From NCBI RefSeq assembly GCF_004345745.1, contig NZ_SLXJ01000003.1, positions 1-64,000 on the forward strand: DNA of 64,000 nucleotides, given 5' to 3'. Positions 35,203 to 55,128 of the stretch are shown piece after piece; within the stretch, counting starts at the first letter, position 1; each line of letters begins with the position of its first letter. Origin of the DNA: Nicoletella semolina (GTDB lineage Bacteria; Pseudomonadota; Gammaproteobacteria; Enterobacterales; Pasteurellaceae). Position numbers and translations under genes: made by a program. The notes below the pieces were generated by a model. The model saw only the letters and a list, made by a program, of their open reading frames with translations. It was not told where the DNA came from and ran no database searches.

Positions 35203-36162
35203 TTATTCACTAACCAGTGTCAGTTTTGGATGAATTTTATCTAACATCTCATAAAAATTTTCCCTATCTTTTGACAGTTTTAAAATCGTAATAACGGATG
35301 ACAAATGTTCTCGCAATTTTGGATGCCCAATATCCTCACTTAAGAATTGGTGTAACTTAACTTTCCTTGCTTGCTTATTCGCCATTTTCTTCAATTCAGG
35401 CAGTAACTCGGGTGCTAAACGCTCATAAATCGCATTGTTTGTAACATGTCCAAAGAATTGTGGAAATTGCGTTCCTATTTTTGGCGGAAATTGCACACCA
35501 TACAAACGGCATAATTCTTTGTAATAATCCAAAGGAAAAGTTTTTACCCACGGCTGCAATTCTTTTGCGACAAAAGCTTCAAAAATTTTCGCTAATGCAT
35601 CTTTTGCACGAGCATCTTGATAACCTGTTGCTTCATCAACAAGAGCAACAATCCCGACTTTCGCCAACGAACGTACTAAAATTTCTGCTTTTTTAGCGGT
35701 GTCTTGCTGAATTTTGGTTAAAGCATTTTCTTCACGTGCTTTTAAATAAACATCACAAACAATCGGTAAAATAGTTGCATCATATCCCTCCTTAATCTGC
35801 CCGTCTTTAGTCTTAAATTTGACCCTTTTGATCACATCAATAACATCTTGATTTATAAAGGGTTTTAAGTTATTTGCATCCATAAAAGCAGGTAAGTTGA
35901 TCACCTCTTCATTTTCAGTAATGGATGCACCTCGAGAACCTCGCTTAGGACGATCTAATGCTTGGAAAACAGAAGCGGTAGAAATAACCCGCTTATCATC
36001 TTCCAATACAGCAACATCAAGTAGCATATCGCCAATCGTCAAAATACCTTCATGTATTGCTAGCGGTAGCTCATCTAGCATTTTTTTGTGTTCCCAACGA
36101 GTTTGAGCGGCTTTCTCGGCTCGTGCTTTGCATAATTCTGGTGTTAATTTTTTTGTTGTCAT
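35203..36162 (-). CDS. P63C-domain phage protein
   Basis: 319 residues. The C-terminal two thirds match the P63C family of phage and plasmid proteins: GYDATILPIVCDVYLKAREE, KVGIVALVDEATGYQ, KTFPLDYYKELCRLYG, NAIYERLAPELLPEL and SEDIGHPKLREHLSSVI. The N-terminus is basic (KARAEKAAQTRWEHKK). Function is not established. It has its own promoter with a palindrome (36205-36220) and is divergent from Bro cassette 1. Confidence 0.8.
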   Translation of the reverse strand: MTTKKLTPELCKARAEKAAQTRWEHKKMLDELPLAIHEGILTIGDMLLDVAVLEDDKRVISTASVFQALDRPKRGSRGASITENEEVINLPAFMDANNLKPFINQDVIDVIKRVKFKTKDGQIKEGYDATILPIVCDVYLKAREENALTKIQQDTAKKAEILVRSLAKVGIVALVDEATGYQDARAKDALAKIFEAFVAKELQPWVKTFPLDYYKELCRLYGVQFPPKIGTQFPQFFGHVTNNAIYERLAPELLPELKKMANKQARKVKLHQFLSEDIGHPKLREHLSSVITILKLSKDRENFYEMLDKIHPKLTLVSE

Positions 36163-36204
36163 AAAAACGCCCTCTTGCTAATTTAAACTTAAAATATAGC
36201 ATAA

Positions 36205-36220
36205 TGCTAAATAAATAGCA
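36205..36220 (-). promoter_or_regulatory. Palindrome in the P63C gene promoter
   Basis: TGCTA-AATAAA-TAGCA lies between a TTGAAA -35 and a TATGCT -10 read leftward. It is a probable operator for autoregulation or a phage repressor. Its sequence differs from the CI operators. Confidence 0.45.
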
Positions 36221-36233
36221 TTTCAAGTTTTAT

Positions 36234-36332
36234 TTGACAACGACTAAAAAACGGCGTAGGATATTTCACACGGAGCGTCGAAAACTCCCAGTTTATAATG
36301 ACCGTTCTTCACCACGTCAGCGTGATTTTTTT
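36234..36332 (+). ncRNA. C4-like antisense leader of Bro cassette 1
   Basis: TTGACA-17-TAGGAT promoter, then a short RNA (start about 36269) ending in CACG-TCAG-CGTG-A and seven T. Two segments, TCGAAAAC (36278) and TAATGACC (36296), are complementary in antiparallel order to GTTTTTCGA (36462) and GTCATTA (36452) just before the Bro gene. This is the layout of the phage P1 C4 antisense RNA, which blocks translation of the downstream antirepressor. Confidence 0.55.
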
Positions 36333-36509
36333 GTACCTATTACTTGCTCTTCGTTGTTACCATTATTCGAGTTGCAGTTTTGGTCAAAAATATATTTATT
36401 TCAATCTATGGTTAGGTGGGTGTGGAAATATCCAATACCACACGGCAGGTCGTCATTACCTGTTTTTCGAACCACCTAACCACCAATCCCATCGAAAAGG
36501 AAAACAAAA

Positions 36510-37112
36510 ATGACAACTCAAATCTCAACATTCAATTTCAAATCATTACCTGTTCGTGTAGAGCTTTTCAACAATCAACCGCATTTTTGCTTGATTGATG
36601 TTTGCAACATTTTTGAGATCCAAAATTCACGTCGAGTACAGCGTGAAATGTTAGATCCGCAAGGTGTACGCTTGGCGTACGTTTTGGCAAAAGACGACAA
36701 ACAACGCAGAACGGCATTTATCAATGAGCCAAATCTCTACCGAATTATTTTCCGTAGCGAAAAAGAAATCGCCAAAACATTCCAAAACTGGGTATTTGAA
36801 GAAGTATTACCGCAAATCCGCCAAACTGGGCAGTATTCGCAAAATCATCAACCAAACTTACCGCTTGCTAAACCAACCAAAGACACAATGTCAGTAGACG
36901 TGAATGTCTTTCACCACTTGCTACATCTAGCACGCACCGCAAGCGACACTTGCGAAGAACTAATGCAAAAACAAATCCGCATACTCGACACCTTCGACTT
37001 AACGCTAATGCCACGAAATAGGCTCACATTAAATTACGAGCTAGTTAAAGAAATGCAGTTTGCGATTGATGATGCCGAAGAAACCGCACGTAAACACCTG
37101 CGCCGTTTCTAA
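36510..37112 (+). CDS. Bro-N domain protein 1 (antirepressor-like)
   Basis: 200 residues. The Bro-N domain (about 8-115) ends with INEPNLYRIIFRS...FQNWVFEEVLPQIRQTG, the signature of phage antirepressors. The C-terminal 85 residues (from QPNLPLAKPTKDTMS) are almost identical at DNA level to the copies ending at 47618 and 50630, while the N-terminal parts differ. The role is probably antirepression or transcription control. An AAAGGA site precedes the ATG. Confidence 0.8.
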   Translation: MTTQISTFNFKSLPVRVELFNNQPHFCLIDVCNIFEIQNSRRVQREMLDPQGVRLAYVLAKDDKQRRTAFINEPNLYRIIFRSEKEIAKTFQNWVFEEVLPQIRQTGQYSQNHQPNLPLAKPTKDTMSVDVNVFHHLLHLARTASDTCEELMQKQIRILDTFDLTLMPRNRLTLNYELVKEMQFAIDDAEETARKHLRRF

Positions 37113-37130
37113 TGGATAACAAACCTAACC

Positions 37131-37156
37131 AACCGCCCACAAGGGCGGTTTTTTCT
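37131..37156 (+). terminator. Terminator after Bro 1
   Basis: AACCGCCC-ACAA-GGGCGGTT then TTTT. The identical 20-base hairpin recurs at 37755, so the relBE module is framed by copies. Confidence 0.88.
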
Positions 37157-37228
37157 TTCCAGTTTATTGCTTTGCATTACATTTTGCATTACAATCGCCA
37201 CAAATTTAACCACTCAAGGAGAATACGA

Positions 37229-37471
37229 ATGGCAACCTTAAACGTCCGCTTAGACGACAACCTAAAACAACAAGCCTATGCGGTTTTGGCAGATCTTAAC
37301 ATCTCGCCAAGTGAGGCAATCCGCCTTTATTTCCAATACATCACCGATAATCACAGTCTGCCGATTAAGCAAGCGGTCATTACCGATGAAGAAGATGAGC
37401 TAATTCGCATTGCTCGCCAACGTCTCGCCAACCCTCAAGGCTTTGTTGAGGTAACCTTAGATGACCTATAA
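37229..37471 (+). CDS. relB: RelB/DinJ-type antitoxin
   Basis: 80 residues from the ATG at 37229 with an AAGGAG site. TLNVRLDDNLKQQAYAVLADLNISPSEAIRLYF is the ribbon-helix-helix of the RelB/DinJ family. The acidic C-terminus should wrap the toxin. It overlaps the toxin gene by 11 nt. Confidence 0.88.
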   Translation: MATLNVRLDDNLKQQAYAVLADLNISPSEAIRLYFQYITDNHSLPIKQAVITDEEDELIRIARQRLANPQGFVEVTLDDL

Positions 37472-37751
37472 ACTCGTCTTCGAAACGCAAGCGTTGAAAG
37501 AGTGGCAAAAACTCAATCACAGCATACGAGAACAGTTTAAGAAAAAGCTCGCTAAAGTCTTGGAAAATCCAGAAATCCCTGCAAACAAATTGCGAGAAAT
37601 CCCTAATGGTTACAAAATCAAACTCCGCTCTGCAGGGTACCGCCTCATCTACCAAGTGCAAAATCAACAAGTCACTGTCGTTGTGGTAGCCATTGGCAAG
37701 CGAGAACGTTCAGAAGCCTACGAAACCGCCAAACATCGGCTTGCTCACTAA
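37461..37751 (+). CDS. relE: RelE-type mRNA interferase toxin
   Basis: 96 residues. YKLVFETQALKEWQKLNHSIREQFKKKL and GYKIKLRSAGYRLIYQV match RelE, including the basic residues and the Arg/Tyr of the catalytic face. This is the third toxin-antitoxin pair in the element. Confidence 0.9.
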   Translation: MTYKLVFETQALKEWQKLNHSIREQFKKKLAKVLENPEIPANKLREIPNGYKIKLRSAGYRLIYQVQNQQVTVVVVAIGKRERSEAYETAKHRLAH

Positions 37752-37754
37752 CCC

Positions 37755-37781
37755 AACCGCCCACAAGGGCGGTTATTTTTT
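37755..37781 (+). terminator. Terminator after relBE
   Basis: AACCGCCC-ACAA-GGGCGGTT then ATTTTTTT, identical in the stem to 37131-37150. Confidence 0.88.
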
Positions 37782-37809
37782 TATGCCTTACTACCTACTA
37801 CACTCGTTA

Positions 37810-38259
37810 CTACCAAAAAAACGCATACAACTGAGCTTCTGTTTGGCTGTCGCACCCCTTGAAAATGTGCTGAATGGCAGCGGTAATCAATGCCTGATAG
37901 CATCGTTCGAACTCGTCTTGCTCCATATTGCCGTAAGCCAAGGATTTCGCCTCTACTCGCATACGCCCATCAATCGTATAGCTCACGTCCTTAAAGCCAG
38001 CTAACACCGTTAAATTTTTACGAAACACATCAAACTGCGTCCTTTCATCGAAATACTTCCACTCCGTTTTATCTGCCGCCCAATGGTCGAAACAGAACTT
38101 GAAAAAAGCAAACACCTTGCGATGAAACTGCGGATTGCGTGATAGCTTGATTTCAATCTCATACTGCTCGCCATTGCGAAACTTCTTTAACGCCTCTGCT
38201 TCTGTATCATCTAATGGCACAAACGTCCCACCAGCCGCTTTAATCATCTGAGCTTTCAT
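37810..38259 (-). CDS. DUF1367 phage protein
   Basis: 149 residues from the ATG at 38259. GGTFVPLDDTEAEALKKFRNGE and LSRNPQFHRKVFAFFKFCFDHW are typical of DUF1367, a family found next to O/P replication and nin genes in lambdoid prophages. Biochemical role is unknown. Confidence 0.8.
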   Translation of the reverse strand: MKAQMIKAAGGTFVPLDDTEAEALKKFRNGEQYEIEIKLSRNPQFHRKVFAFFKFCFDHWAADKTEWKYFDERTQFDVFRKNLTVLAGFKDVSYTIDGRMRVEAKSLAYGNMEQDEFERCYQALITAAIQHIFKGCDSQTEAQLYAFFW

Positions 38260-38273
38260 CACTTAACCCTAAA

Positions 38274-38360
38274 TCACTTGGCTCCAACCCAATTATCTTC
38301 CCATTTGAAAAGCTGACCATCACATTTTGGGCATTTCAGTTCAGTAAATTGTTCACACAT
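38274..38360 (-). CDS. Small zinc-ribbon protein
   Basis: 28 codons (MCEQFTELKCPKCDGQLFKW...). The CPKC knuckle and its place after the P gene, starting inside its 3' end, suggest a Com-like or nin-type zinc finger. There is only one CxxC pair, so it may dimerise to bind zinc or be a remnant. Confidence 0.45.
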   Translation of the reverse strand: MCEQFTELKCPKCDGQLFKWEDNWVGAK

Positions 38361-38995
38361 CTTGAAACGCCCAATGTTTTCCGTAGAGCTGAAAATCGCT
38401 TATCTATTACGTCTGGTGGTAGTGGACGACTTTCCGATTTTTTAGGTAAAGTTAAATTTGGTGCTGGAATTTGCTCGCCTACCTGAATCCGTTTTGCCAT
38501 CGCCTTCAACGCTTTTTCTGCTTCATTGCGTAGCGTGTCATCTTTCCAGCCACGCTGACGGTTTCGCTGGTAGAGGTCAGTCAAAAGCCAGTATTCCGCA
38601 TTCGACCGAAATTTAAACTTGTGGATTTCCTCAAACCCATAAGACGAGAAATGATTCAACCGCTTGAGCAGTTGCTCAACGTTCGGTAAGCCTAAATCCT
38701 TAAAATCAATCTGCTTACACCAACCAATGAACTTCCCCACACTTGGCACATAATCGTCCTCTTTGGCTCGCAAGGCTTTCATTCCTTGCCGAACTTGCTC
38801 AACCGTGCGAATGTTGTTTTCGACAAATCCCATAATCCATTGCTGTTTTGCGATGGAGATTTGTTGAGGCGTGTAGTACGACAATCTCGGACAACTTGCG
38901 AGCATCTGCTCGAAAATGCGATTTACCAACATTTCCGCCCCCTCGTTCACAAGCGGTCGATTTGCGGTCTTATTTTGCAAAGCAACAGCAGTCAT
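38336..38995 (-). CDS. Phage replication protein P-like
   Basis: 219 residues from the ATG at 38995, which overlaps the upstream stop (ATGA) and has GAGGGGG as ribosome site. It resembles phage P proteins and helicase loaders: an N-terminal helical region (RIFEQMLASCPRLSYYTPQQI), GKFIGWCKQID, then a basic tail. It would recruit host DnaB to the phage origin. Function is inferred from position and weak similarity. Confidence 0.7.
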   Translation of the reverse strand: MTAVALQNKTANRPLVNEGAEMLVNRIFEQMLASCPRLSYYTPQQISIAKQQWIMGFVENNIRTVEQVRQGMKALRAKEDDYVPSVGKFIGWCKQIDFKDLGLPNVEQLLKRLNHFSSYGFEEIHKFKFRSNAEYWLLTDLYQRNRQRGWKDDTLRNEAEKALKAMAKRIQVGEQIPAPNLTLPKKSESRPLPPDVIDKRFSALRKTLGVSRCVNNLLN

Positions 38996-39708
38996 AACAC
39001 CCCCTCCCACGCTTCAGGCGTATTCCACGCTTGGGACAAGTTATCTCCACGCTGTCGAGATTTCGGCTGTGCATCTTCCCACTCCCAGCTAGATTTAAAA
39101 CCACGCCAGCCACGCTCAATCGAAATAGAGACCGCCTGCTGAATGGAAATCCCAGCCTTGTCCGCTTCACGTTGAAAACCATCTAGGGCAGTCTTTGTGA
39201 TAGTCGATCGACAAGCTTTACGATGTTTTACAAAATCTTCAGCCAATTGCCCTGTAATGCCGAACTGCTCAAGTAAATCCAACGCATCGGATTTTCTCGT
39301 GCGTGCGTTACTAACCGTTAGGTTAGTATTGTTAGTATTCTCTGTAGTAATCTTTGTATTAACGAATGGCGGATTTGCGACTTCCCGAATGCTTTCCATC
39401 AAGGCATCAAATTTTGCTAAATCTAATTTGAAATAAATTCGATGTTCTAGGCGTTTGTGCGTTTCAATTAAAATGCCTAACTCGACTAATTTTTTGCGTG
39501 CGGTTTCCTGTTCTCGACGACCTAACCCCGTTTCTTGCTCAAGCTCAGCTTGTGTTTTGTACACACCTAGCGGATTTTCTGTTTTATCTTGCCAGTAAAA
39601 AATCTGTCCAAATAAAACAGCGGCAGTCACACCGCCTAATGGCTTCGCTAACTGTGGATAATAGGCAATAGGCTGTCCTAATCGCCGTAAATGTTGGCTA
39701 AAACTCAT
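38992..39708 (-). CDS. Phage replication protein O-like
   Basis: 238 residues. The N-terminal winged helix (VTAAVLFGQIFYWQDKT...YKTQAELEQETGLGRREQETARKKLVELGIL) matches phage replication initiators. The middle is polar, and the C-terminus (GWRGFKSSWEWED) is typical. Lambda carries its origin inside O; the T-rich run near 39320-39350 (repeated GTTAGTATT) is a possible iteron region. Four-base overlaps join it to both neighbours. Confidence 0.75.
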   Translation of the reverse strand: MSFSQHLRRLGQPIAYYPQLAKPLGGVTAAVLFGQIFYWQDKTENPLGVYKTQAELEQETGLGRREQETARKKLVELGILIETHKRLEHRIYFKLDLAKFDALMESIREVANPPFVNTKITTENTNNTNLTVSNARTRKSDALDLLEQFGITGQLAEDFVKHRKACRSTITKTALDGFQREADKAGISIQQAVSISIERGWRGFKSSWEWEDAQPKSRQRGDNLSQAWNTPEAWEGVL

Positions 39709-39950
39709 TCCGACACCTCAATAAAATACTGCTTCACACGCTTGCCATTTGGCAACGTAATCCATTCATCTTTCACGTTATAACCCTGTGATTTAATGTC
39801 ATAAATTCGAGCCGAAAGCCTAAAACTGCCCACGCCTTCTAACGCTGAAATTTGCGTAATTCGCCCACCTTCGAGCATATACTGCAAAATCCGCTTGGTT
39901 TGCGATTGACTGCTTTGAGCGTTTGGATTATCATTTCCCTGTGTTTTCAA
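39705..39950 (-). CDS. Helix-turn-helix phage protein
   Basis: 81 residues starting at a TTG (39950), set by AAGGAGG six bases upstream; no in-frame ATG is better. KRILQYMLEGGRITQISALEGVGSFRLSARIYDIKSQGY is a winged helix-turn-helix common in phage early operons beside O. It has no known specific role. Confidence 0.65.
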   Translation of the reverse strand: MKTQGNDNPNAQSSQSQTKRILQYMLEGGRITQISALEGVGSFRLSARIYDIKSQGYNVKDEWITLPNGKRVKQYFIEVSE

Positions 39951-39968
39951 AACATACCTCCTTCGAAT

Positions 39969-39993
39969 ACCACCGTGACTGCGGTGGTTTTTT
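39969..39993 (+). terminator. Rightward terminator between cro and the early genes
   Basis: ACCACCG / CGGTGGT then six T on the plus strand, opposing the leftward cro operon. In lambda a short antisense RNA (oop) ends in the comparable place. I see no clear promoter for one here. Confidence 0.5.
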
Positions 39994-40204
39994 ATTGCTT
40001 ATTTTCTGGCGGAAACACGTCATCAATTGAGACATTCGCTCCGAATTTATTTAACGCTTCTACTAATTTTCTAGCCATTGCTAGCGATGAATTTCTTCTC
40101 TGTTGCTCATAATGCCCTAAAGCTCCTTGAGTAATATTGATTGCACTAGCTAATTCTGTTTGAGTTAAGCCTATTTTTTTTCTAAATATAATTATCTTGT
40201 TCAT
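39992..40204 (-). CDS. Cro-like repressor
   Basis: 70 residues. IIIFRKKIGLTQTELASAINITQGALGHYEQQRRNSS is a Cro/C1 helix-turn-helix. It is divergent from cI across the operator triplet. The -35 TTTACT and -10 CATAAT (40261-40233) with 17-bp spacing form its promoter; operators cover both boxes. Confidence 0.85.
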   Translation of the reverse strand: MNKIIIFRKKIGLTQTELASAINITQGALGHYEQQRRNSSLAMARKLVEALNKFGANVSIDDVFPPENKQ

Positions 40205-40227
40205 AGTTCCTTACCATCACAAATTAA

Positions 40228-40299
40228 AATACATTATGTATTTTTATTCTATAAAAGTAAATACTTTTTGTATTTTGAAAAACTAATACAAAACGTAAT
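40228..40299. promoter_or_regulatory. OR-like operator triplet
   Basis: Three sites of the form AATAC-N5-GTATT: 40228-40242 (ATTAT), 40260-40274 (TTTTT) and 40285-40299 (AAAAC, right arm GTAAT). Centres are 32 and 25 bp apart. The first two cover the leftward cro promoter and the third the likely cI promoter. The same consensus recurs three times at 44065-44133. Confidence 0.8.
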
Positions 40300-40329
40300 A
40301 ATTAGAAAAAGCTAAAATTAGGAGGAGTT

Positions 40330-41001
40330 ATGAAAAGACAGTGGAGTGAATTAGTACGCGAAAAAATGGCTGAAAAGAATCTTAAACAAGATGATCTCGC
40401 TGAAGCACTTGATAAAACACAGGGAGCAATAGGACACTGGCTCACAGGTAAACGAAAACCTAATTTTGATGATGTGGCTAAAATGCTAGGTGTTGTTGGG
40501 GTTGAACGTGTAATGCTCAACTCTGATGGGCTAATCTTGCTAGAAGATGAAGTTGAACTCGCAGGAAAACCTAAAGAAGGCTTGATCCGAGTACTCGGCG
40601 AAGCGGTCATGGGAGCAGATGGTGAATTTGAGATAAGCGAAGAACTAATGGGGTTTGTTCGTATATACAGTTCAGACAAAGAAGCCTACTGCTTACGAGT
40701 AAAAGGCAACTCTATGGAACCTCGCATTCTCAGTGGTGAATTTGTCGTCATTGAGCCAAATACAGAGATTTACCCAGGCGACGAAGTATTTGTCCGCACA
40801 AACAACGGCAAGAATATGATTAAGGTAATGGATTATTGCCGTGATGGAGAATATCGTTTTTCTAGCATTAACAAAGCTCACGATTCTTTTACCCTAGATT
40901 ATGATGAAGTCAATACCGTCGCATCAGTAGCAGCTATTGTTAAACGCAGTCGGTTTATTTCATTAGAGGAAATACCAGAAACAGAATTTCATTCCATTTG
41001 A
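40330..41001 (+). CDS. CI-type repressor with S24 self-cleavage domain
   Basis: 223 residues. The helix-turn-helix (about 18-60) reads LKQDDLAEALDKTQGAIGHWLTGKRKP. The S24 peptidase domain has its Ser in VKGNSMEPRI and Lys in NGKNMIKVMDY; VLGEAVMGADG is the usual cleavage-region context. DNA damage should trigger self-cleavage and early gene expression. An AGGAGGAG site precedes the ATG. Confidence 0.92.
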   Translation: MKRQWSELVREKMAEKNLKQDDLAEALDKTQGAIGHWLTGKRKPNFDDVAKMLGVVGVERVMLNSDGLILLEDEVELAGKPKEGLIRVLGEAVMGADGEFEISEELMGFVRIYSSDKEAYCLRVKGNSMEPRILSGEFVVIEPNTEIYPGDEVFVRTNNGKNMIKVMDYCRDGEYRFSSINKAHDSFTLDYDEVNTVASVAAIVKRSRFISLEEIPETEFHSI

Positions 41002-41083: not shown

Positions 41084-42142
41084 ATGAATATCAATGAGTT
41101 ATCACTTATTAATGAATTAAGTGATCAGAAGCGTAAAGTTGATTTCAATAGCTACGATTTTAGTGTCAAAGAATTAGTTTCTATGGTAGCTGAAGGTATT
41201 ATTGATATTGCTCCAGAATATCAAAGACAATTTCGGTGGGAAGATGCTCGCCAATCTAAATTGATTGAATCACTCTTACTAGGTATCCCTATTCCCAATA
41301 TCTTTATGGCAACAAATAATGATGGTAGCTGGGAAGTCATTGATGGTGTACAACGACTAACTACGATTATTCGCTTTATGGATAATCAAAATGCCAAAGA
41401 TAAAGTTGGTGTAACGGATAATCTTATTTTGCAAAAACTGGAGAAAATTCCATCTTTCAATAAACAAGTTTTTGCAAAATTACCACAAAAAATTAAATTA
41501 GATTTTATGTTACGTACACTTAAAGTTACAACACTCACAGACAAAAGTGATCTTGATGTTCGCTTCGATCTCTTTGAGCGGTTAAATACAGGCGGTATAA
41601 AATTAACAGCACAAGAAATACGTAGCTGTGTCTTTCGTGGTAGCTTTAACGAATTTGTTAAACGAATGGCTCAAGACAAAAACTTCTTAAAATCCACTTT
41701 ACTGAAAGAACAACGCATAAAAGACGGTACGGCAGAAGAAGCCGTACTCCGATTTTTTGCATTTTTGCATAATTATAAAAACTTCAAATATAACGTAACG
41801 AGTTTCTTAAATAACTACATGTCTTTTGCAAATAAAGATTTTGACTACGAACAAAATGAAAAACTCTTCAAAAAGACATTCAAAGAACTTGCTAAGCTCG
41901 AATTTGGCATATCAAAAGGGCAAACTGCTCGCCGATATAGTTTCAAAATCAACTTCTTTGAAGGTGTTGCGGTCGGTGCTGCTCTTGCTTTGCAAAAAAA
42001 ATCAAAACTCAATCTTAGTTCCTTTTATGAATGGGTAAATGACCCAAGTTTTATTGAGTCCACCACAGGGGCAACAAACCGTCCTCAAATGGTTCAACAT
42101 CGCATTGAATTTTGCAAAAACCACTTTTTAGAAAATGTTTAG
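41084..42142 (+). CDS. DUF262-domain protein in the rex position
   Basis: 352 residues. The N-terminal DUF262 (GmrSD/ParB-like) domain has ITPxYQR-like IAPEYQRQFRWED and the nucleotide-binding IDGVQRLTTI (the DGQQR motif with V for Q), then FERLNTGGIKLTAQEIRSCVF. DUF262 proteins include GmrS of the modification-dependent endonucleases and many defence genes. No C-terminal HNH (DUF1524) is present. It follows cI by 82 bp, so it could be transcribed in the lysogen. It overlaps the next gene by 8 nt. Confidence 0.82.
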   Translation: MNINELSLINELSDQKRKVDFNSYDFSVKELVSMVAEGIIDIAPEYQRQFRWEDARQSKLIESLLLGIPIPNIFMATNNDGSWEVIDGVQRLTTIIRFMDNQNAKDKVGVTDNLILQKLEKIPSFNKQVFAKLPQKIKLDFMLRTLKVTTLTDKSDLDVRFDLFERLNTGGIKLTAQEIRSCVFRGSFNEFVKRMAQDKNFLKSTLLKEQRIKDGTAEEAVLRFFAFLHNYKNFKYNVTSFLNNYMSFANKDFDYEQNEKLFKKTFKELAKLEFGISKGQTARRYSFKINFFEGVAVGAALALQKKSKLNLSSFYEWVNDPSFIESTTGATNRPQMVQHRIEFCKNHFLENV

Positions 42143-42824
42143 TTCAATCAAAACCGAACATTCCACAAAGCAATTAGAAATTCAAGCTTTTTTTGCACAA
42201 ATTAAGCAACTGAATAATGAGCAAAATGAATGTGTAGTAACACGACAAGTTTTTACAAAAGAATTATTGTTCAACACGCTCAAAGGAATGCTTTTTGTTC
42301 TCTTATATGGATCTATTGAATACACTGTTTCAGAAACAGTAAAAATAGCAGAGAGAGAAATTTCTTTGCAAAATCTCCATTTAAACGAAGTTCAACCAAG
42401 CTTACTTATCCGTTTTTTGCATAAAAATTTTGATGCTTTGCACAACGTAGGTAGAAAATATAAATGGCAAAAACGCCTTGATTTTATGCAAATTTTCTCA
42501 AGCAATAGCAAAATTATAGAAAACATTTGCGATGATTTAGAATTACCAACCGATGGAAAGAATATACGAGTTGAACAACTTCGTAGTATTTTTTGCACAT
42601 TCAATATTGAACCCACATTACTTAATGCTCAATGGGGTGGTCGCCTAAAAGATATTGTGGAAAATAGAAATACGATTGCTCACGGCAATACCACAGCTGC
42701 AGATGTGGGTAAGAATCTGTTTATCTCCGATTTACAGGTTAGAATAGATGAAGTGAACGCATTCTGCACAACATTCATTGCCTTGTTTGAAGACTATCTT
42801 AATAATAAAAAATATAAAGTATAA
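42135..42824 (+). CDS. HEPN-domain protein (MAE_28990-like), partner of DUF262
   Basis: 229 residues, mainly helical. Near residue 190 is ENRNTIAHG, the R-N-x4-H motif of the MAE_28990/MAE_18760-like HEPN group, many of which are RNases. The N-terminal VTRQVFTKELLFNTLKG...YGSIEYTV fits that family. Overlap with the DUF262 gene implies coupled synthesis. A terminator overlaps the stop codon. I infer an abortive-infection or exclusion pair. Confidence 0.75.
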   Translation: MFSSIKTEHSTKQLEIQAFFAQIKQLNNEQNECVVTRQVFTKELLFNTLKGMLFVLLYGSIEYTVSETVKIAEREISLQNLHLNEVQPSLLIRFLHKNFDALHNVGRKYKWQKRLDFMQIFSSNSKIIENICDDLELPTDGKNIRVEQLRSIFCTFNIEPTLLNAQWGGRLKDIVENRNTIAHGNTTAADVGKNLFISDLQVRIDEVNAFCTTFIALFEDYLNNKKYKV

Positions 42825-43298: not shown

Positions 43299-43589
43299 TT
43301 AAGCCTGCGCGACCTGTTTTATTTCAATGTTCAAATTCAACGCTTTCATCACTTTTAACACCGTAGCAAATGTCGGATTGCCTTTGCCTGAGAAGGCTTT
43401 ATACAATCCCTCACGGCTTACACCTGTTTCTCTTGCTAATTGGCTCATATTGCGTGCTTTCGCAATATCGCCTAATGCTGAAAGGATTAAATCCACATCA
43501 TCTTCTTTCAGCACTTCATTTAAGTAAGCCTGAATTTCCTCTTCGTTTCTCAAATGTTCTGCCACATCAAAATCTTGTAGTTCTATCAT
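43299..43589 (-). CDS. HI1420-type antidote protein
   Basis: 96 residues. YLNEVLKEDDVDLILSALGDIAKARNMSQLARETGVSREGLYKAFS is the Cro/C1 helix-turn-helix of the 'addiction module antidote' family named after Haemophilus HI1420. It begins 1 bp after the killer gene. Confidence 0.88.
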   Translation of the reverse strand: MIELQDFDVAEHLRNEEEIQAYLNEVLKEDDVDLILSALGDIAKARNMSQLARETGVSREGLYKAFSGKGNPTFATVLKVMKALNLNIEIKQVAQA

Positions 43590-43590
43590 A

Positions 43591-43887
43591 TTAAACTCCT
43601 AATTCTTTTGCTAAGGCTTTCGCCCTTTTAATATCATTCTCTTGTGTGGACTTATCACCACCACAAACTAAAATCACAATTACACCGTTCTGATTCTTCA
43701 GATATACCCGATAACCTTTCCCTTCTGTAATTCTTAACTCTGAAAGCCCATCACCAATAGGCTTCACATCACCAAAATTACCAAGCTGTAACCGCTTAAT
43801 CCGTGTTTTTATTTTGGCTCTTGCACGCAAATCCTTCAGTGTATCTAACCATTCTTTAAAAATTGCCGTGGATTTAATCTGTATCAT
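43591..43887 (-). CDS. HI1419-type RelE/ParE killer protein
   Basis: 98 residues. FKEWLDTLKDLRARAKIKTRIKRLQLGNFGDVKPIGDGLSELRI and KGYRVYLKNQNGVIVILVCGGDKSTQ define the putative addiction module killer family. It is first in the operon, like HI1419. This is the fourth toxin gene of the prophage. Confidence 0.88.
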   Translation of the reverse strand: MIQIKSTAIFKEWLDTLKDLRARAKIKTRIKRLQLGNFGDVKPIGDGLSELRITEGKGYRVYLKNQNGVIVILVCGGDKSTQENDIKRAKALAKELGV

Positions 43888-43909
43888 AACAATCCCCTTT
43901 CATAGTTGG

Positions 43910-43938
43910 ATTATATCACTGTGAACTATAATTCACAA
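43910..43938 (-). promoter_or_regulatory. Promoter and operator of the killer/antidote operon
   Basis: TTGTGA (43938-43933), 17-bp spacer, TATAAT (43915-43910). The palindrome TGTGAA-N6-TTCACA (43920-43937) covers the -35 and spacer and is a likely antidote-binding site. Just upstream at 43946 is AAGTGCGGT, the uptake signal of the other Pasteurellaceae clade. Confidence 0.7.
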
Positions 43939-44064
43939 CAAATCAAAGTGCGGTCAAATCTCCTAAATCTTTCCATTTTTTCTTTCTCTTTTTACTTAAC
44001 TGAATAAAAAACAAGCAGTCAAACACATCAACTAAAATTTACCTCCTTATAAATCAACACATTA

Positions 44065-44135
44065 AATACATTTTGTATTTTTAATTTAAAAATAAATACA
44101 TTTTGTATTGACAAATAAAATACTTATTGTATTAT
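44065..44135 (+). promoter_or_regulatory. OL-like operator triplet and early promoter
   Basis: Three perfect AATAC-N5-GTATT sites at 44065-44079, 44095-44109 and 44119-44133, centres 30 and 24 bp apart, nearly the spacing of the set at 40228. TTGACA (44108-44113) and TATTAT (44130-44135), with 16-bp spacing, overlap the second and third sites. The repressor should therefore shut off the rightward early operon. Confidence 0.8.
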
Positions 44136-44174
44136 GCCCCCATCAAAACAAAACGCCCACACGGAGAAAACAAG

Positions 44175-44405
44175 ATGAACGTACAAAGCCTAAATGAAAA
44201 TAAAGATTACATCTTATGCAGACGCAAAGAAAAACGTGGAAACGGATTTATTCAAATTTTTGAAGCGTTCCAAAACGAAAAAAACGGCGAGTTAGTTATT
44301 GAGCGTGCAATGTTTAGAAACGGTGAGTTAATTGATTGGAACCAAAGCGAAAAAATGAATGCAAAGCAAGCTGAAAATCTTTGGAAGATGTACACCGTTC
44401 ACTAA
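44175..44405 (+). CDS. Small early phage protein
   Basis: 76 residues from the ATG at 44175 (ACGGAG upstream). It is a charged single-domain protein (YILCRRKEKRGNGFIQIFEAF...). It is the first gene of the repressor-controlled operon, where lambda encodes N. There is no arginine-rich N-terminus, so an N function cannot be claimed. Confidence 0.6.
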   Translation: MNVQSLNENKDYILCRRKEKRGNGFIQIFEAFQNEKNGELVIERAMFRNGELIDWNQSEKMNAKQAENLWKMYTVH

Positions 44406-44442
44406 GAATTTTTACCAAAGCCCTTTATAGAGGGCTTGAATA
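44405..44442 (+). repeat. 38-bp direct repeat, copy 1
   Basis: Identical to 44663-44700. It contains the hairpin AAGCCCT-TTATAG-AGGGCTT. Each copy directly follows a small ORF stop. It may be a processing or pause site. No T run follows. Confidence 0.85.
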
Positions 44443-44469
44443 GCAATACAGGAAAACACGGAGGAAAAA

Positions 44470-44661
44470 ATGCGAGTTGGATCACTAGAACACGAAAAAA
44501 TGATGGAAGTCTTTGAAAAAACCATACAAGGCAGATTTGACAGAGAGCCTTATGAACTTTGGAAAAAAAGTCGGATTTACCAAGATGGAGAGACTAATGA
44601 GAAGTTCATCATGTTTAGGTTTGGCTACTCAGCAGGAAGATTAGAGTATATGCACCGATAA
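44470..44661 (+). CDS. Small early phage protein
   Basis: 63 residues; GGAGGA lies just before the ATG. The ending FIMFRFGYSAGRLEYMHR resembles a motif (F..GY.AGR) common in small phage proteins. Function is unknown. Confidence 0.6.
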   Translation: MRVGSLEHEKMMEVFEKTIQGRFDREPYELWKKSRIYQDGETNEKFIMFRFGYSAGRLEYMHR

Positions 44662-44662
44662 C

Positions 44663-44700
44663 AGAATTTTTACCAAAGCCCTTTATAGAGGGCTTGAATA
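44663..44700 (+). repeat. 38-bp direct repeat, copy 2
   Basis: Exact second copy of 44405-44442, directly before the large structured region. Confidence 0.85.
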
Positions 44701-44726
44701 AAGGTTCTAAACCAGCCGAAAGGCAA

Positions 44727-44741
44727 TGTTCTTTAAAAATT
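44727..44741 (+). promoter_or_regulatory. boxA antitermination element
   Basis: TGTTCTTTAAAAATT matches the boxA of Pasteurellaceae rRNA leaders and lambda nut sites (GYTCTTTAANA). It lies 7 nt before the first long stem of the structured region, so Nus factors may keep polymerase going through untranslated RNA. Confidence 0.6.
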
Positions 44742-45364
44742 GAGATAAAACCGCATTATGCCTGATGGTGAAAGGTAGGAAGATGAAAAATCGGAGGAAG
44801 CCCATAAAACCCCCACTACCTCACAGCGTGATGCCTTTTTGATTAAACAAAGAGGAAACAGACATCACCCATAATGCGGTTTAGGTGAAATCTGGGCGTG
44901 GACAGTGAGCCACAAGAGAGTAGCCGAAAATCACCGAGCAAGGTTTGCTGTTTTGTGGAAAAACAGATTTTTTAATCCCTGTTGAATGATAGTGGGGTCA
45001 GAACCCATCTTGCTCACCATTGAAAACCGTACTGGTTCTCCCTTGAGGGTTTTACCTTTTTACCCTCAAGCAGTGCGGTTTTCAATGGTAACAACGGAGA
45101 AACCTCCAGACCTTGCCACTGGGTCACAAAAAAATAGTGGTAAATTAATGGCAGTATAAAGGGATTTAGGCACTTTGCCCGCCCTGCTCTGTTGATAGTC
45201 GGTGTAGGGACGATTCAGTTGCTTGACGCATTCACAAGCAATCATACAAAGAAGCTAAGCCTGAAAGGGGAGTGAGCAGTCTACACAGTGTAGGTAATCC
45301 GCCAGCGACAATGCCTCACAGCACATGTCCTTGAATTTTTAAGGTTTTGAAAAGGGGAAAACCT
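44727..45364 (+). ncRNA. Large structured non-coding RNA candidate
   Basis: No ORF above 60 codons lies in 765 bp between genes, but long helices tile it: 44748-44760/44870-44882 (13 bp) enclosing GTGA-AA-GGTAG/CTACC-TCAC and GTGATG/CATCAC; 44884-44888/44931-44935 with GTGG/CCAC inside; GAGCAAG 44936/45009; ACCATTGAAAACCG 45016/45076 (14 bp) enclosing CTTGAGGGT/ACCCTCAAG; CCACT 45117/45136; TTGCTTG 45219/45235; CTACA 45281/45289; AGGTTTT 45342/45358. Successive domains abut like a multi-domain RNA. I cannot match it to a named family; ends are approximate. Confidence 0.6.
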
Positions 45365-45425
45365 GAATGCAACAATCAACCCTTGATCTATGCTCGCAAG
45401 ATGGTTTCTACAAAGGAAAAAGAAA

Positions 45426-46184
45426 ATGAACAAATACGAACTGCTGAAAGACGACACAATCCAGTATGCAGGAAAAACACTTTACCGAATTAAAGCATTA
45501 ACTTCTTTTGGTGTGGTTAAAGCAGGTGATTTAGGCGGATATATCGAAAAAGAAGCTAATCTATCACATACTGGCGATGCTTGGGTATATGACAATGCTG
45601 AGGTATATGACAATGCTAAGGTATGTGGCAATGCTGAGGTATATGGCGATGCTTGGGTATGTGGCAATGCTGAGGTATATGACAATGCTTGGGTATATGA
45701 CAATGCTGAGGTATATGGCAATGCTAAGGTATGTGGCAATGCTTGGGTGTCTGGCAATGCTGAGGTATATGACAATGCTAAGGTATGTGGCAATGCTTGG
45801 GTGTCTGGCAATGCTGAGGTATATGACAATGCTAAGGTATATGACAATGCTAAGGTATATGACAATGCTAAGGTATGTGGCAATGCTAGGGTATGTGGCG
45901 ATGCTTGGGTATATGACAATGCTAGGGTATGTGGCGATGCTGAGGTGTCTGGCGATGCTAGAGTGCATAAAATAAACCATATTGTGTGCTTTTCTAACGT
46001 TGGTCGTGAAAATGGTACACTGACTGTCTATGCTGGCGAGGAAGGTTTAATTGCCACTCGTGGCTGTTTCTGCGGTACGGTTGATGAATTTTTAGCGAAA
46101 TCTGCCGAAGTCCATGACGAAAAAACCAAGCGAGAGTATCAATTACTGATTGAAGTAGCAAAAAGTAGAATTCTAGGCGAATAA
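45426..46184 (+). CDS. Hexapeptide-repeat (left-handed beta-helix) phage protein
   Basis: 252 residues from the ATG at 45426. The N-terminal part (YELLKDDTIQYAGKTLYRIKAL...KAGDLGGYIEKEANLS) is shared by many phage early proteins, followed by about 22 six-residue repeats of the type (N/D)A-x-V-(Y/C/S)-(D/G) and a C-terminal cap. Such repeats form a left-handed beta-helix, as in hexapeptide acyltransferases, but catalytic loops are missing. Function is unknown. The repeat DNA has an 18-bp period, so long but meaningless frames exist on other strands. Confidence 0.8.
   Translation: MNKYELLKDDTIQYAGKTLYRIKALTSFGVVKAGDLGGYIEKEANLSHTGDAWVYDNAEVYDNAKVCGNAEVYGDAWVCGNAEVYDNAWVYDNAEVYGNAKVCGNAWVSGNAEVYDNAKVCGNAWVSGNAEVYDNAKVYDNAKVYDNAKVCGNARVCGDAWVYDNARVCGDAEVSGDARVHKINHIVCFSNVGRENGTLTVYAGEEGLIATRGCFCGTVDEFLAKSAEVHDEKTKREYQLLIEVAKSRILGE
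45576..45965 (+). repeat. 18-bp tandem coding repeats
   Basis: About 22 units built on GGTATATGACAATGCTGA, differing in a few positions. They encode the beta-helix turns. Copy number may vary between strains through recombination. Confidence 0.88.
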
Positions 46185-47067: not shown

Positions 47068-47618
47068 AACTCTTCGAAAATCAACCGCACTTTTGTTTAG
47101 CTGATGTTTGCGAAATCTTAGAAATTAAAAATTCTCGCCGTGTAAATGCTGAAATGCTAAATGAAAAGGGGGTACGTAAAACGTACACCCTTACCAAAGG
47201 CGGAAAACAGGAGCTTACATTCATCAACGAACCGAATTTATACCGCATTATTTTTAAATCAAGAAAAGCTGAAGCGGTAGAATTTCAAAACTGGGTATTT
47301 GAAGAAGTTTTGCCACAAATTCGCAAAACTGGGAAATACTTGCAAAATCAACAACCAAACTTACCGCTTGCTAAACCAACCAAAGACACAATGTCAGTAG
47401 ACGTGAATGTCTTTCACCACTTGCTACATCTAGCACGCACCGCAAGCGACACTTGCGAAGAACTAATGCGAAAACAAATCCGCATACTCGACACCTTCGA
47501 CTTAACGCTAATGCCACGAAATAGGCTCACATTAAATTACGAACTAGTTAAAGAAATGCAGTTTGCGATTGATGATGCAGAAAAAGTCGCTCGTCAGCAC
47601 GTCAGAAATCGCTTCTAA
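47055..47618 (+). pseudogene. Bro-N protein 2, start codon lost
   Basis: 188 codons from PVRVELFENQPHFCLADVC onward equal a Bro gene lacking its first ten or so codons and its start. It is joined at CCTGTTCGTGTAGA to the KilA-N gene in a different frame. An internal ATG at 47154 could give a 154-residue product. From 47290 on it is nearly identical to Bro 3. Confidence 0.7.
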
Positions 47619-49876: not shown

Positions 49877-50027
49877 ATGCCCAAAATTTACATAGTGATC
49901 TATGTCGGGTCGAGAGAACCTAATAAAATACCGAAAGGAAATAAGTTCCGCCGTCCAGATACGGTAGTTGAAGCCCGACACCCTACTAAGGTTTCGGATT
50001 ACTAACTAAATTATCTGGAGCATAAAA

Positions 50028-50630
50028 ATGTCAAATTCTCAAATCTTAACTTTCGATTTCAAATCTCAACCTGTTCGTATTCAATCATTTAACGATGAAC
50101 CATATTTCTGTTTAACTGATGTTTGCTTTGTACTAGGTGTAAATCGTCGTAGTTCTGAAGCCTTTCGCTTAAATACAGAGGGGTGCAAAGAAATTGCAAC
50201 CCTTACAAACGGGGGTGAACAGATTGTTACTTTCATCAACGAACCAAACCTTTACCGCATCATTTTCAGATCGAACAAAGCTAACGCTGTAGAATTTCAA
50301 AACTGGGTATTTGAAGAAGTCTTGCCACAAATTCGCAAAACTGGGAAATACTTGCAAAATCAACAACCAAACTTACCGCTTGCTAAACCAACCAAAGACA
50401 CAATGTCAGTAGACGTGAATGTCTTTCACCACTTGCTACATCTAGCACGCACCGCAAGCGACACTTGCGAAGAACTAATGCAAAAACAAATCCGCATACT
50501 CGACACCTTCGACTTAACGCTAATGCCACGAAATAGGCTCACATTAAATTACGAGCTAGTTAAAGAAATGCAGTTTGCGATTGATGATGCAGAAAAAGTC
50601 GCTCGCCAGCACATCAGAAATTGCTTCTAA
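50028..50630 (+). CDS. Bro-N domain protein 3 (antirepressor-like)
   Basis: 200 residues. Bro-N: QILTFDFKSQPVRIQSFNDEPYFCLTDVCFVLGVNRRSSEAFRL, then INEPNLYRIIFRSNKANAVEFQNWVFEEVLPQIRKTG. The C-terminal half is shared with Bro 1 and Bro 2. It sits between recT and the exonuclease gene, which are normally adjacent, and has its own leader and terminator. Confidence 0.8.
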   Translation: MSNSQILTFDFKSQPVRIQSFNDEPYFCLTDVCFVLGVNRRSSEAFRLNTEGCKEIATLTNGGEQIVTFINEPNLYRIIFRSNKANAVEFQNWVFEEVLPQIRKTGKYLQNQQPNLPLAKPTKDTMSVDVNVFHHLLHLARTASDTCEELMQKQIRILDTFDLTLMPRNRLTLNYELVKEMQFAIDDAEKVARQHIRNCF

Positions 50631-52854: not shown

Positions 52855-53065
52855 ATTTCTATGATCAGAAAAATCAAACCTTTCAAAGGGTGTTACGAAT
52901 TATCATACCCTTTTAAAAGTAGTCAATGATGGACTGGTTAAGGGATCAAAAGATCGCCGTCTTTACCTTAAAGTTCAACGGTACGCCAACCTTGATCAGT
53001 TCATCACCAGTAATTGGCGTTGCTAGTGATGAGTTTTACAACTTTGAACTATAAGGACAGTCAAA

Positions 53066-53804: not shown

Positions 53805-54211
53805 ACAACGAAAATCTTCCACAACCATTTGAAAATAAAGATGAATTCATCAAAGAATTTTTTGCTATCCAGCAACAAGAAGTGGCTGTTAAGCGTGATG
53901 AATTGGCAATCCGAAAAGAAGAAACCAAATTAAACCAAGAAGTTGCACTCGCTTCTATTGCATCGCAGGAAAAAGTTGAGTTAAAGCGTGGTGATGTGTT
54001 TTTGAAAACACAAATCGGCAAATATTGGCTTTGGGGCGTATTAGGTGTTTTGTTTGCTGTCATTATAGGTGTCGCAATGTACCTCAACCAATCGGATATT
54101 GCTATTCGGATTATTGAAATTAGTGGTGCTGTTTTATTGGGGTATTTCGCTGGTGTAAACCGAGGAAAAGCTCAAATACTTGAGCAACAAAACAGACAAA
54201 AAGAAGAATGA
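53801..54211 (+). CDS. Coiled-coil membrane protein
   Basis: 136 residues. A charged coiled coil (about 20-65: EVAVKRDELAIRKEETKLNQE) is followed by two membrane segments (YWLWGVLGVLFAVIIGVAMYL; IIEISGAVLLGYFAGV) and a basic tail. This topology, encoded beside an antirepressor cassette, would fit an exclusion or signalling protein, but no family is recognised. Confidence 0.6.
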   Translation: MNNENLPQPFENKDEFIKEFFAIQQQEVAVKRDELAIRKEETKLNQEVALASIASQEKVELKRGDVFLKTQIGKYWLWGVLGVLFAVIIGVAMYLNQSDIAIRIIEISGAVLLGYFAGVNRGKAQILEQQNRQKEE

Positions 54212-54216
54212 CAATT

Positions 54217-54246
54217 AAATCCCACTTTAACCAGTGGGATTTTTAT
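54217..54246 (+). terminator. Terminator before cassette 5
   Basis: AAATCCCACT / AGTGGGATTT with a 6-base loop, then TTATTT running into TTGACA at 54247. Confidence 0.88.
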
Positions 54247-54341
54247 TTGACACCTTAAAAACTTTATACTACTATTCCGCTAACGGTGCTCAACACACCT
54301 TGACTCAAAGCGGAATATGACCGCAGGAATGCGGTTTTTTT
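54247..54341 (+). ncRNA. C4-like antisense leader of Bro cassette 5
   Basis: TTGACA-17-TACTAT promoter, start about 54282, terminator ACCGC / GCGGT with seven T. GGTGCTCAACAC (54285-54296) pairs with GTGTTGAAGCACC (54419-54431) except for one bulge, and CTCAAAG (54304-54310) with CTTTGAG (54410-54416). The target is closed by GATCGGGTG / CACCCGATC (54357/54428). This is the clearest of the antisense/target pairs. Confidence 0.65.
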
Positions 54342-54487
54342 GTATCCTGATTTTATGATCGGGTGGTGTTCCGTTCATACAATACCGAAAGGAAAAGACG
54401 GAAGGCTGACTTTGAGCAGTGTTGAAGCACCCGATCGCCCTATCTCAACAGTAGGGTAAATTTAAAATACTCAAAGGATACAAAACA

Positions 54488-55128
54488 ATGTCAAATTTAC
54501 CAATCCAATTCCAATCATTTGATTTCAATTCATCGACTGTCCGTGTCATCATTGATCCAAACCAAGAACCGTGGTTCTGTGGTGCAGATGTCTGCGATAA
54601 TCTAGGATATACAAATGCTCCCGATGCATTAAGAAAACATTGTAAAGAGAGGGGTATCGCAAAACGCTATACCCCCACTAAAAGCGGTGAACAAGAGATG
54701 ATTTTCATCAACGAACCCAACTTATACCGCCTGATCATCAAATCACGCAAACCACAAGCGGAAAAATTCGAGGCGTGGGTATTTGAAGAAGTCTTGCCTC
54801 AAATCCGCAAGACTGGGCAATATTCACAAAATCCCCAACCAAACTTACCCTTGTTGAACCAACCTATAGTATCGAACTCAAAGAGGAAGAAATCCGCCAA
54901 CTTGCTTGGCTACACTTCTCACACCGCAGAATGATGTCCCTACTCGGCTGGGTTGCCAAAGGGCTTGAAGTTATCGGTTCAAAATTCGCAGGCGAGGCTT
55001 ACGGTTGTTCAACAGAATACCGTCGCCAAAGTGATAAAACTAAACCCACGCTTGAGCTAATGATCGCCAAAATCGAACACAAAGGCACACGACAAGAACT
55101 CACGCACCGCCTAACAGCGTCCGTTTAA
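54488..55128 (+). pseudogene. Bro protein 5, broken by a 1-base deletion
   Basis: The first frame (54488-54934) encodes Bro-N to QPNLPL, then drifts. From about 54865 the next frame encodes PTYSIELKEEEIRQLAWLHF and MMSLLGWVAKGLEVIGSKFA to TASV (55128), the Bro C-terminal domain. At the junction TTACCCTTGTTGAACC lacks one base relative to the TTACCGCTTG of the paralogs. The C-terminal domain differs from that of Bro 1-3. Confidence 0.75.

Follow-up and report, generated by a model that had tools for sequence, protein, structure and literature searches.

Large structured phage RNAs such as GOLLD and ROOL are described as long, phage-borne, often located beside transfer RNA (tRNA) genes and of unknown function (PMC12286853). 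The leaders of bacterial ribosomal RNA (rRNA) operons follow the order boxB-boxA-boxC; their boxA (consensus GYTCTTTAANA in PMC5725501, and reported to bind NusB/S10) is described as both necessary and sufficient for the complex; in a looping model, boxC is retained at the exit channel by boxA-NusB until emergence of the trailer (PMC10250234). A boxA upstream of a CRISPR array is reported to raise the long untranslated array RNA ~10-fold (PMC7862264). Herein we analyzed 64,000 nucleotides (nt) of Nicoletella semolina (contig NZ_SLXJ01000003.1, positions 1 to 64,000, hereafter the window), which contain a lambda-like prophage according to gene content (the list of open reading frames (ORFs) and family matches), and characterized a structured stretch of its early operon, 44727-45378, that begins with a boxA. 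In our reading, which we consider about evenly balanced between right and wrong, this is the untranslated-RNA part of a CI-repressed immediate-early phage operon that would borrow the Nus complex of the host for making and folding its RNA. The features of the leader and of the RNA itself are as follows.

44418-44437, forward strand: first copy of hairpin H1 (AAGCCCT/AGGGCTT), recognized from sequence, with no boxA following it
44676-44695, forward strand: hairpin H1 of the leader, recurrent among relatives
44715-44724, forward strand: small hairpin H2 (GCC-GAAA-GGC), directly before boxA, its shape differing among leaders
44727-44738, forward strand: boxA (TGTTCTTTAAAA), fitting GYTCTTTAANA
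44727-44928, forward strand: module A, with boxA, closing helix P1, inner helices P2 and P3, then P4/P5 (covariation, model R1)
44936-45015, forward strand: local helix 44936-44942/45009-45015, complementary at 7/7 positions, in the window copy only
45016-45089, forward strand: long hairpin H (folding z score −10.55), a candidate RNase III-type processing stem
45156-45378, forward strand: module C, including helix 45202-45207/45281-45286 (covariation)

The structure of modules A and C is supported by covariation among relatives (numbered L for loci and G for genomes). In 13 module A sequences, 84% of the cells are paired and 25 of the 44 pairs have changed on both sides, giving a covariation score of 0.408, compared with 0.149 (standard deviation 0.015) after shuffling and no more than 0.096 when partners are slid. 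The nine module C sequences behave alike, with 14 of 26 pairs changed on both sides and a score of 0.296 (shuffled, 0.136 with a standard deviation of 0.021; slid partners, 0.074 at most). These alignments represent 13 of the 21 distinct module A sequences (L005, L029, L033, L040, L041, L042 and L045 were omitted as close copies and L020 for a long insertion) and nine of the ten copies of module C (the second L090 copy was omitted for an insertion). RNAalifold, working from the module A alignment alone, recovers P1, P4 and P5 and misses P2 and P3. The more poorly paired helices include P2 (67% of cells paired), its inner stem (43%), the inner part of P3 (65%) and one module C stem (44%), which is at least partly explained by variable lengths. 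In the well-aligned helices (P1, P3, P4, P5 and the first helix of module C) there are 14 G-U cells against two A-C cells, an excess that would be expected of a forward-strand RNA.

In the window itself, the abutting helix ends at 44882/44884, 44935/44936 and 45015/45016 that the original prediction had listed hold up by complementarity: P1 (44748-44760/44870-44882) is complementary at 13/13 positions and the helix 44884-44888/44931-44935 at 5/5. For the 44884/44935 stem, support from relatives is limited to two or three inner pairs, and with another 3' partner (GGT at 44884-44886 with GCC at 44923-44925). The helix at 44936-45015 is without a relative in the loci compared, and this stretch folds with a z score of −1.52 (15 of 200 shuffles as low). 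Hairpin H is closed by helix 45018-45031/45074-45087 (13/14 positions complementary, the 14th being a G-T pair) and has counterparts in 23 of 46 sites, although its pairing is not independent evidence because these hairpins were selected for complementarity. The 3' arm of H, in the window (45016-45089) and in L019, L062, L068 and L083, contains AAGTGCGGT exactly or nearly. This word forms the core of DNA uptake sequences of the Haemophilus type, and hairpin H may derive from a pair of them.

The boxA at 44727 is present in front of the RNA as in rRNA, as had been claimed, and the draft genome (1.95 Mb) has no other match to TGYTCTTTAAHAAT. Among the related loci, 31 distinct leaders carry H1, with a boxA 4-64 nt behind the hairpin in 30 of them and the remaining one truncated by a contig end, when only ~0.02 boxA words would be expected by chance per 150 nt. 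The GYTCTTTAANA consensus is fitted at 44 of the 46 non-redundant sites, a count biased at the sites found with model R1 because R1 itself includes boxA, and in 30 of the 31 leaders chosen by hairpin alone; as this set was selected by its hairpin, it gives no independent test that a hairpin precedes boxA. The first H1 copy of the window lies in a stretch (44393-44442) that shares 92% identity with the leader copy (44653-44700). Some loci have a second boxA word ~490 nt ahead of the main one, namely L064 and L081 (both 1014-1037), L040 (163-186) and L045 (2782-2805, reverse strand).

Since the host’s own 16S gene was not found in its draft genome, rRNA leaders were taken from other genomes of the family. 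The exact 14-mer TGCTCTTTAACAAT, which serves as boxA in several phage copies (L003, L055 and L073 among them) and differs from the window boxA at two bases, occurs at 13 places in four of five family genomes searched: ten lie 127-143 nt before a 16S gene (G045, G113), one is a phage locus (L136) and two in G048 are neither. An inverted repeat stands a few bases upstream of boxA in nine of the ten 16S leaders, in which boxC (TCTGTGTGGG) begins 25 nt after the start of boxA. In the phage sequences, module A P1 begins 20-22 nt after that point (12 A1 sequences with boxA), while in the wider site set the predicted first pairs are scattered 8-29 nt after boxA. One 16S leader of G045 (L147, ~1430-1514) has a tRNA-like end, and not the usual hairpin, directly before boxA.

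Relatives differ in which modules they carry and in what order, which argues against the single architecture of ~640 nt originally proposed. After removal of near-duplicates (46 of 53 sites kept), we recognized module A at 16 sites, class II cores at eight, module B at six, hairpin H at 23 and module C at seven. The order is A-H-C in the window, A-B-H-C-C-tRNAs in Pasteurella phage Pmp13 (L030), A-tRNA-tRNA-H in L065 (where module A and a tRNA are only 8 nt apart), class II-H in L073, C-H in L107 and L125 and B-H-C in L004, and module C occurs as tandem pairs in L030 and L090. Modules thus exist apart, reordered and with other partners, and 44727-45378 is probably, judging from these arrangements, a chain of separately folding modules in one transcript and not a single giant fold; indeed, the long-range pairs of the minimum-energy fold have no support from any relative, and we rejected a single global fold. 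A tRNA was called within 2 kilobases (kb) of 11 of the 46 sites, of which nine calls are trusted (Arg-TCT, Met-CAT, Cys-GCA), and Rfam adds one in L070, whereas no tRNA gene was found near the RNA in the window itself. What remains of the notion of a new or divergent large phage RNA is therefore its structure, its lack of an Rfam match, its CI-controlled operon and the tRNA neighbors of its relatives, without the single architecture. Two class II cores, L095 4235-4309 (reverse strand) and L098 10195-10269 (forward strand), have a different closing helix and no boxA word within 300 nt upstream, where L095 shows only ATTTCTTTAT.

Folding energy shows structure beyond chance only in part. The stretch 44727-45378 has a z score of −5.29, below all 150 shuffles, yet 14 of 19 control stretches (36000-62000) are also below −1.5, with a range of −0.23 to −6.04 and the lowest value at 54200-54851, which contains an sRNA-Xcc1 match. 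Module C alone scores −0.06, and the 240 nt after boxA at the 46 sites have a median of −1.09 (six sites above 0). Energy was rejected as proof of structure, as the controls fold comparably and module C does not stand out.

The absence of a credible ORF from 44700-45426 was borne out by the frame list (at least 40 amino acids (aa)) and by stop counts. The forward-strand frames within 44662-45425 are one of 57 aa (44986-45159), without a ribosome-binding site by a simple rule, and one of 48 aa (45347-45493), which has a TTG start and overlaps the downstream gene; the reverse strand has frames of 59 and 58 aa. A hidden coding sequence in the window copy is ruled out by at least two stops in all six frames of module A and of module C, and also because paired changes preserve the helices. 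A stop-free frame exists in five of 22 aligned copies and is not common to them (module A: L007 frame −2, L047 +3; module C: L017 −3, L030a −2, L090a +3). Searches with Rfam covariance models gave no match at gathering score inside 44400-45600 (three sub-threshold matches, none phage-like) and, for 16 related loci, only tRNAs and one sRNA-Xcc1, which rules out a known family, GOLLD and ROOL included, in agreement with the first impression of the sequence. No published account of this RNA was found in the literature searched, a body that excludes most subscription journals.

A search for homologs in Pasteurellaceae prophages, as initially suggested, did reveal relatives, and among the genomes searched strong ones exist only in this family. 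With model R1, 21 of 140 genomes of the family were found at E 0.01 (19 of these at E 1e-4), 6 of 394 in the order, all Pasteurellaceae, and 3 of 369 in the class. Two of the class-level matches (22.1 and 19.7 bits) equal the chance expectation at E 0.01, and spread beyond the family was rejected; 53-nt matches in G023 and G029 are likewise at chance level. Weak members may have been missed in the order and class searches, because only six candidates per genome were scored and filters were stricter. A long exact pattern, searched in one genome per species across 84,980 species, gave six loci in five species, all Pasteurellaceae, and nine phage records had DNA matches (seven Mannheimia, two Pasteurella). 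The viral scan for module A returned 27 stretches, 16 of them module A (L034 partial) and 11 looking like chance; that for module C returned nine, of which only L059 also had the other module C word.

The RNA lies in the left early operon of the prophage, whose forward strand reads promoter, two small ORFs, ~760 bases without a credible ORF and a repeat-protein gene, followed in the same operon by a KilA-N protein, RecT and an exonuclease. Related stretches in Pasteurella phages Pmp13 and Pm86 and Mannheimia phages 535AP2 and 587AP2 hold the same position, between repressor and recombination genes. The surrounding features of the window are the following.

39992-40204, reverse strand: cro, in the prophage repressor region
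40330-41001, forward strand: cI, in the prophage repressor region
41084-42824: GmrSD_N-type gene and adjoining HEPN-type gene, between cI and the antitoxin-toxin pair, looking like a defence or moron cassette
43299-43887, reverse strand: antitoxin-toxin pair
44065-44079, 44095-44109 and 44119-44133: three CI/Cro-type operators (AATAC....GTATT words)
44108-44135, forward strand: pL-like promoter TTGACA-16-TATTAT, overlapped by the operators, 11/12 consensus bases
44175-44405, forward strand: small ORF 1 of the early operon (phrog_12192, function unknown, E 1.9e-39)
44470-44661, forward strand: small ORF 2 of the early operon, 63 aa, without a family match
45426-46184, forward strand: downstream gene for a beta-solenoid repeat protein (PF18836), the frame open already from 45390

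The predicted triplet of CI-type operators over the operon is present (words at 44065, 44095 and 44119), and words of this type recur in the interval from cro to cI (40228 and 40260). The operators are better evidence than the promoter word, because promoter-like sites are as frequent in shuffled sequence (four found against 3.7 expected). The repeat-protein gene has a DNA period of 18 bases, and similar repeats come after the RNA in L022. Further along, ORFs 47154-47618 and 50028-50630 share a long near-identical C-terminal part (PNLPLAKPTKDTMSVDVNVFHHLLHLARTASDTCEEL...), a duplication within the operon. The same prophage region has Rfam sRNA-Xcc1 matches at 49904-49987 (53.4 bits) and 54357-54444 (68.1 bits), with a further one in L018 (2716-2799, reverse strand), and a C4 antisense RNA match at 52922-53011 (54 bits against a cut-off of 45).

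These elements suggest a course of events for the lytic onset. Upon prophage induction, CI would leave the operators and transcription would start from the pL-like promoter, whereupon boxA in the nascent RNA would recruit NusB/S10 and other Nus factors and the modified polymerase would traverse the long untranslated, folded stretch. As proposed for rRNA, the first helix strand would be held near the exit channel, so that the module can loop out and fold co-transcriptionally in the meantime, the 3' strand of P1 emerging ~110 nt after the 5' strand and closing the module. The product would be a string of modules, here A, H and C and in relatives also B, class II and tRNAs. It is perhaps separated into pieces by cleavage at hairpin H, and would act as a phage RNA in its own right, in trans. 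Its final role may be that of an RNA or RNA-protein particle, a translation-related one beside tRNAs, or that of a Nus decoy. In a broader and more tentative form, possible rather than probable in our view, Pasteurellaceae phages would run a mimic of the ribosomal operon, in which an rRNA-type leader (the common chassis) loads the host rRNA transcription complex on phage DNA to make and co-transcriptionally fold exchangeable RNA modules and tRNAs (the cargo), yielding phage RNA or RNA-protein particles as lytic growth begins.

Several observations weigh against this account. Only 11 of the 46 sites have a tRNA call, and the first H1 copy has no boxA behind it. From boxA to the first plausible ORF there are from 52 nt (L018) to ~1.6 kb (Pmp13), with 182 nt in L120, and the early ORFs in L018 and L120 mean that the leader does not always drive a long RNA. 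When all helices are counted, the strand test has little force (G-U against A-C cells: 34/24 in module A, 12/13 in module C). Moreover, boxA is reported to lower the expression of suhB and of a ParE-like toxin gene, and rRNA to be Rho-resistant by itself with Nus factors serving its folding (both PMC5725501).

Among other explanations, a cis-acting antiterminator, in which boxA and module A form an N-independent substitute for nutL against left-operon terminators, with no separate role for the RNA, is unlikely in our estimation while still deserving attention. It would suit the fixed position behind an early promoter and boxA, the fact that in many classes a structured module comes immediately after boxA, and the two small window ORFs, neither of which matches a known antiterminator (family searches recognized no N protein among them); the available part of a text on Mannheimia phages also names Q and no N (PMC4553209). 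Against it, additional RNA modules and tRNAs extend over up to ~1.6 kb in Pmp13, beyond the needs of an antiterminator. In lambda, nut sites are present in both early operons, whereas no boxA was seen in the right operon of the window (35500-41000). A right-operon counterpart of the leader was rejected elsewhere too, the boxA-like words being either inside right-operon genes (two in 587AP2) or weak (one near cro in Pmp13).

The position ahead of early genes, with probable cotranscription, and the size of ~200 nt per module, which is that of riboswitches, would also fit an attenuator or riboswitch-like leader controlling the next gene. We regard this as quite improbable, as the downstream content varies (RNA modules, tRNAs, ORFs of differing length) and 43900-45500 has no terminator-like site on the forward strand. 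Very improbable, finally, is a pure decoy, an abundant boxA RNA titrating NusB/S10 from host rRNA synthesis with modules that merely stabilize it: the boxA is identical or near-identical to that of the host family’s 16S leaders and second boxA words precede the main one in L064 and L081, but a decoy has no need of conserved covarying modules such as C, or of tRNAs.

The large RNAs that phages carry next to tRNA genes pose a riddle, to which this locus adds a covariation-backed set in lambda-like gamma-proteobacterial phages. With a recognizable host system (Nus) at the start of the RNA, its making and folding could be tested in E. coli K-12. If the Nus-based reading is true, phages use the rRNA folding machinery, and these loci would be a natural setting in which to distinguish a function of boxA in RNA folding from one in Rho resistance, or to find that it has both.

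Compared with known systems, the abundant ~800-nt noncoding RNA of phage ICP1 is likewise an ORF-free phage stretch of similar length, but it lies at lysis genes in a phage described as without tRNAs (PMC7567579). The CRISPR-array boxA also stands ahead of a long untranslated RNA, and the L. pneumophila Lens word GTTCTTTAAAA (PMC7862264) is contained in the window boxA, while both the cargo and the host element differ. Like GOLLD and ROOL, for which an RNA-only oligomeric cage is characteristic, the RNA described here is long, structured and phage-borne, and in some relatives it lies near tRNAs; unlike them it has no Rfam match and is built from separately moving modules. With lambda nutL it shares a boxA in the left early operon. 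The lambda nut site has boxA and then boxB, and a nut site with its N-bound boxB hairpin after boxA does not fit, as the conserved phage hairpins precede boxA. For the put RNA of phage HK022, which acts on polymerase without the help of protein factors, the comparison consisted of the Rfam search. The rRNA leader differs in that the phage promoter is an early one under CI, the cargo is something other than rRNA (without a match to an Rfam rRNA model) and the sequence between boxA and helix is not alike, yet it shares the hairpin upstream of boxA, the same boxA word, untranslated RNA and tRNAs downstream, and a helix strand following the boxA start at 20-22 nt in the phage against 25 nt for boxC. 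Read from sequence, the order of hairpin, boxA and closing helix thus follows the rRNA-leader plan and not the nut plan, because a hairpin stands before boxA and a strand of P1 begins shortly behind it.
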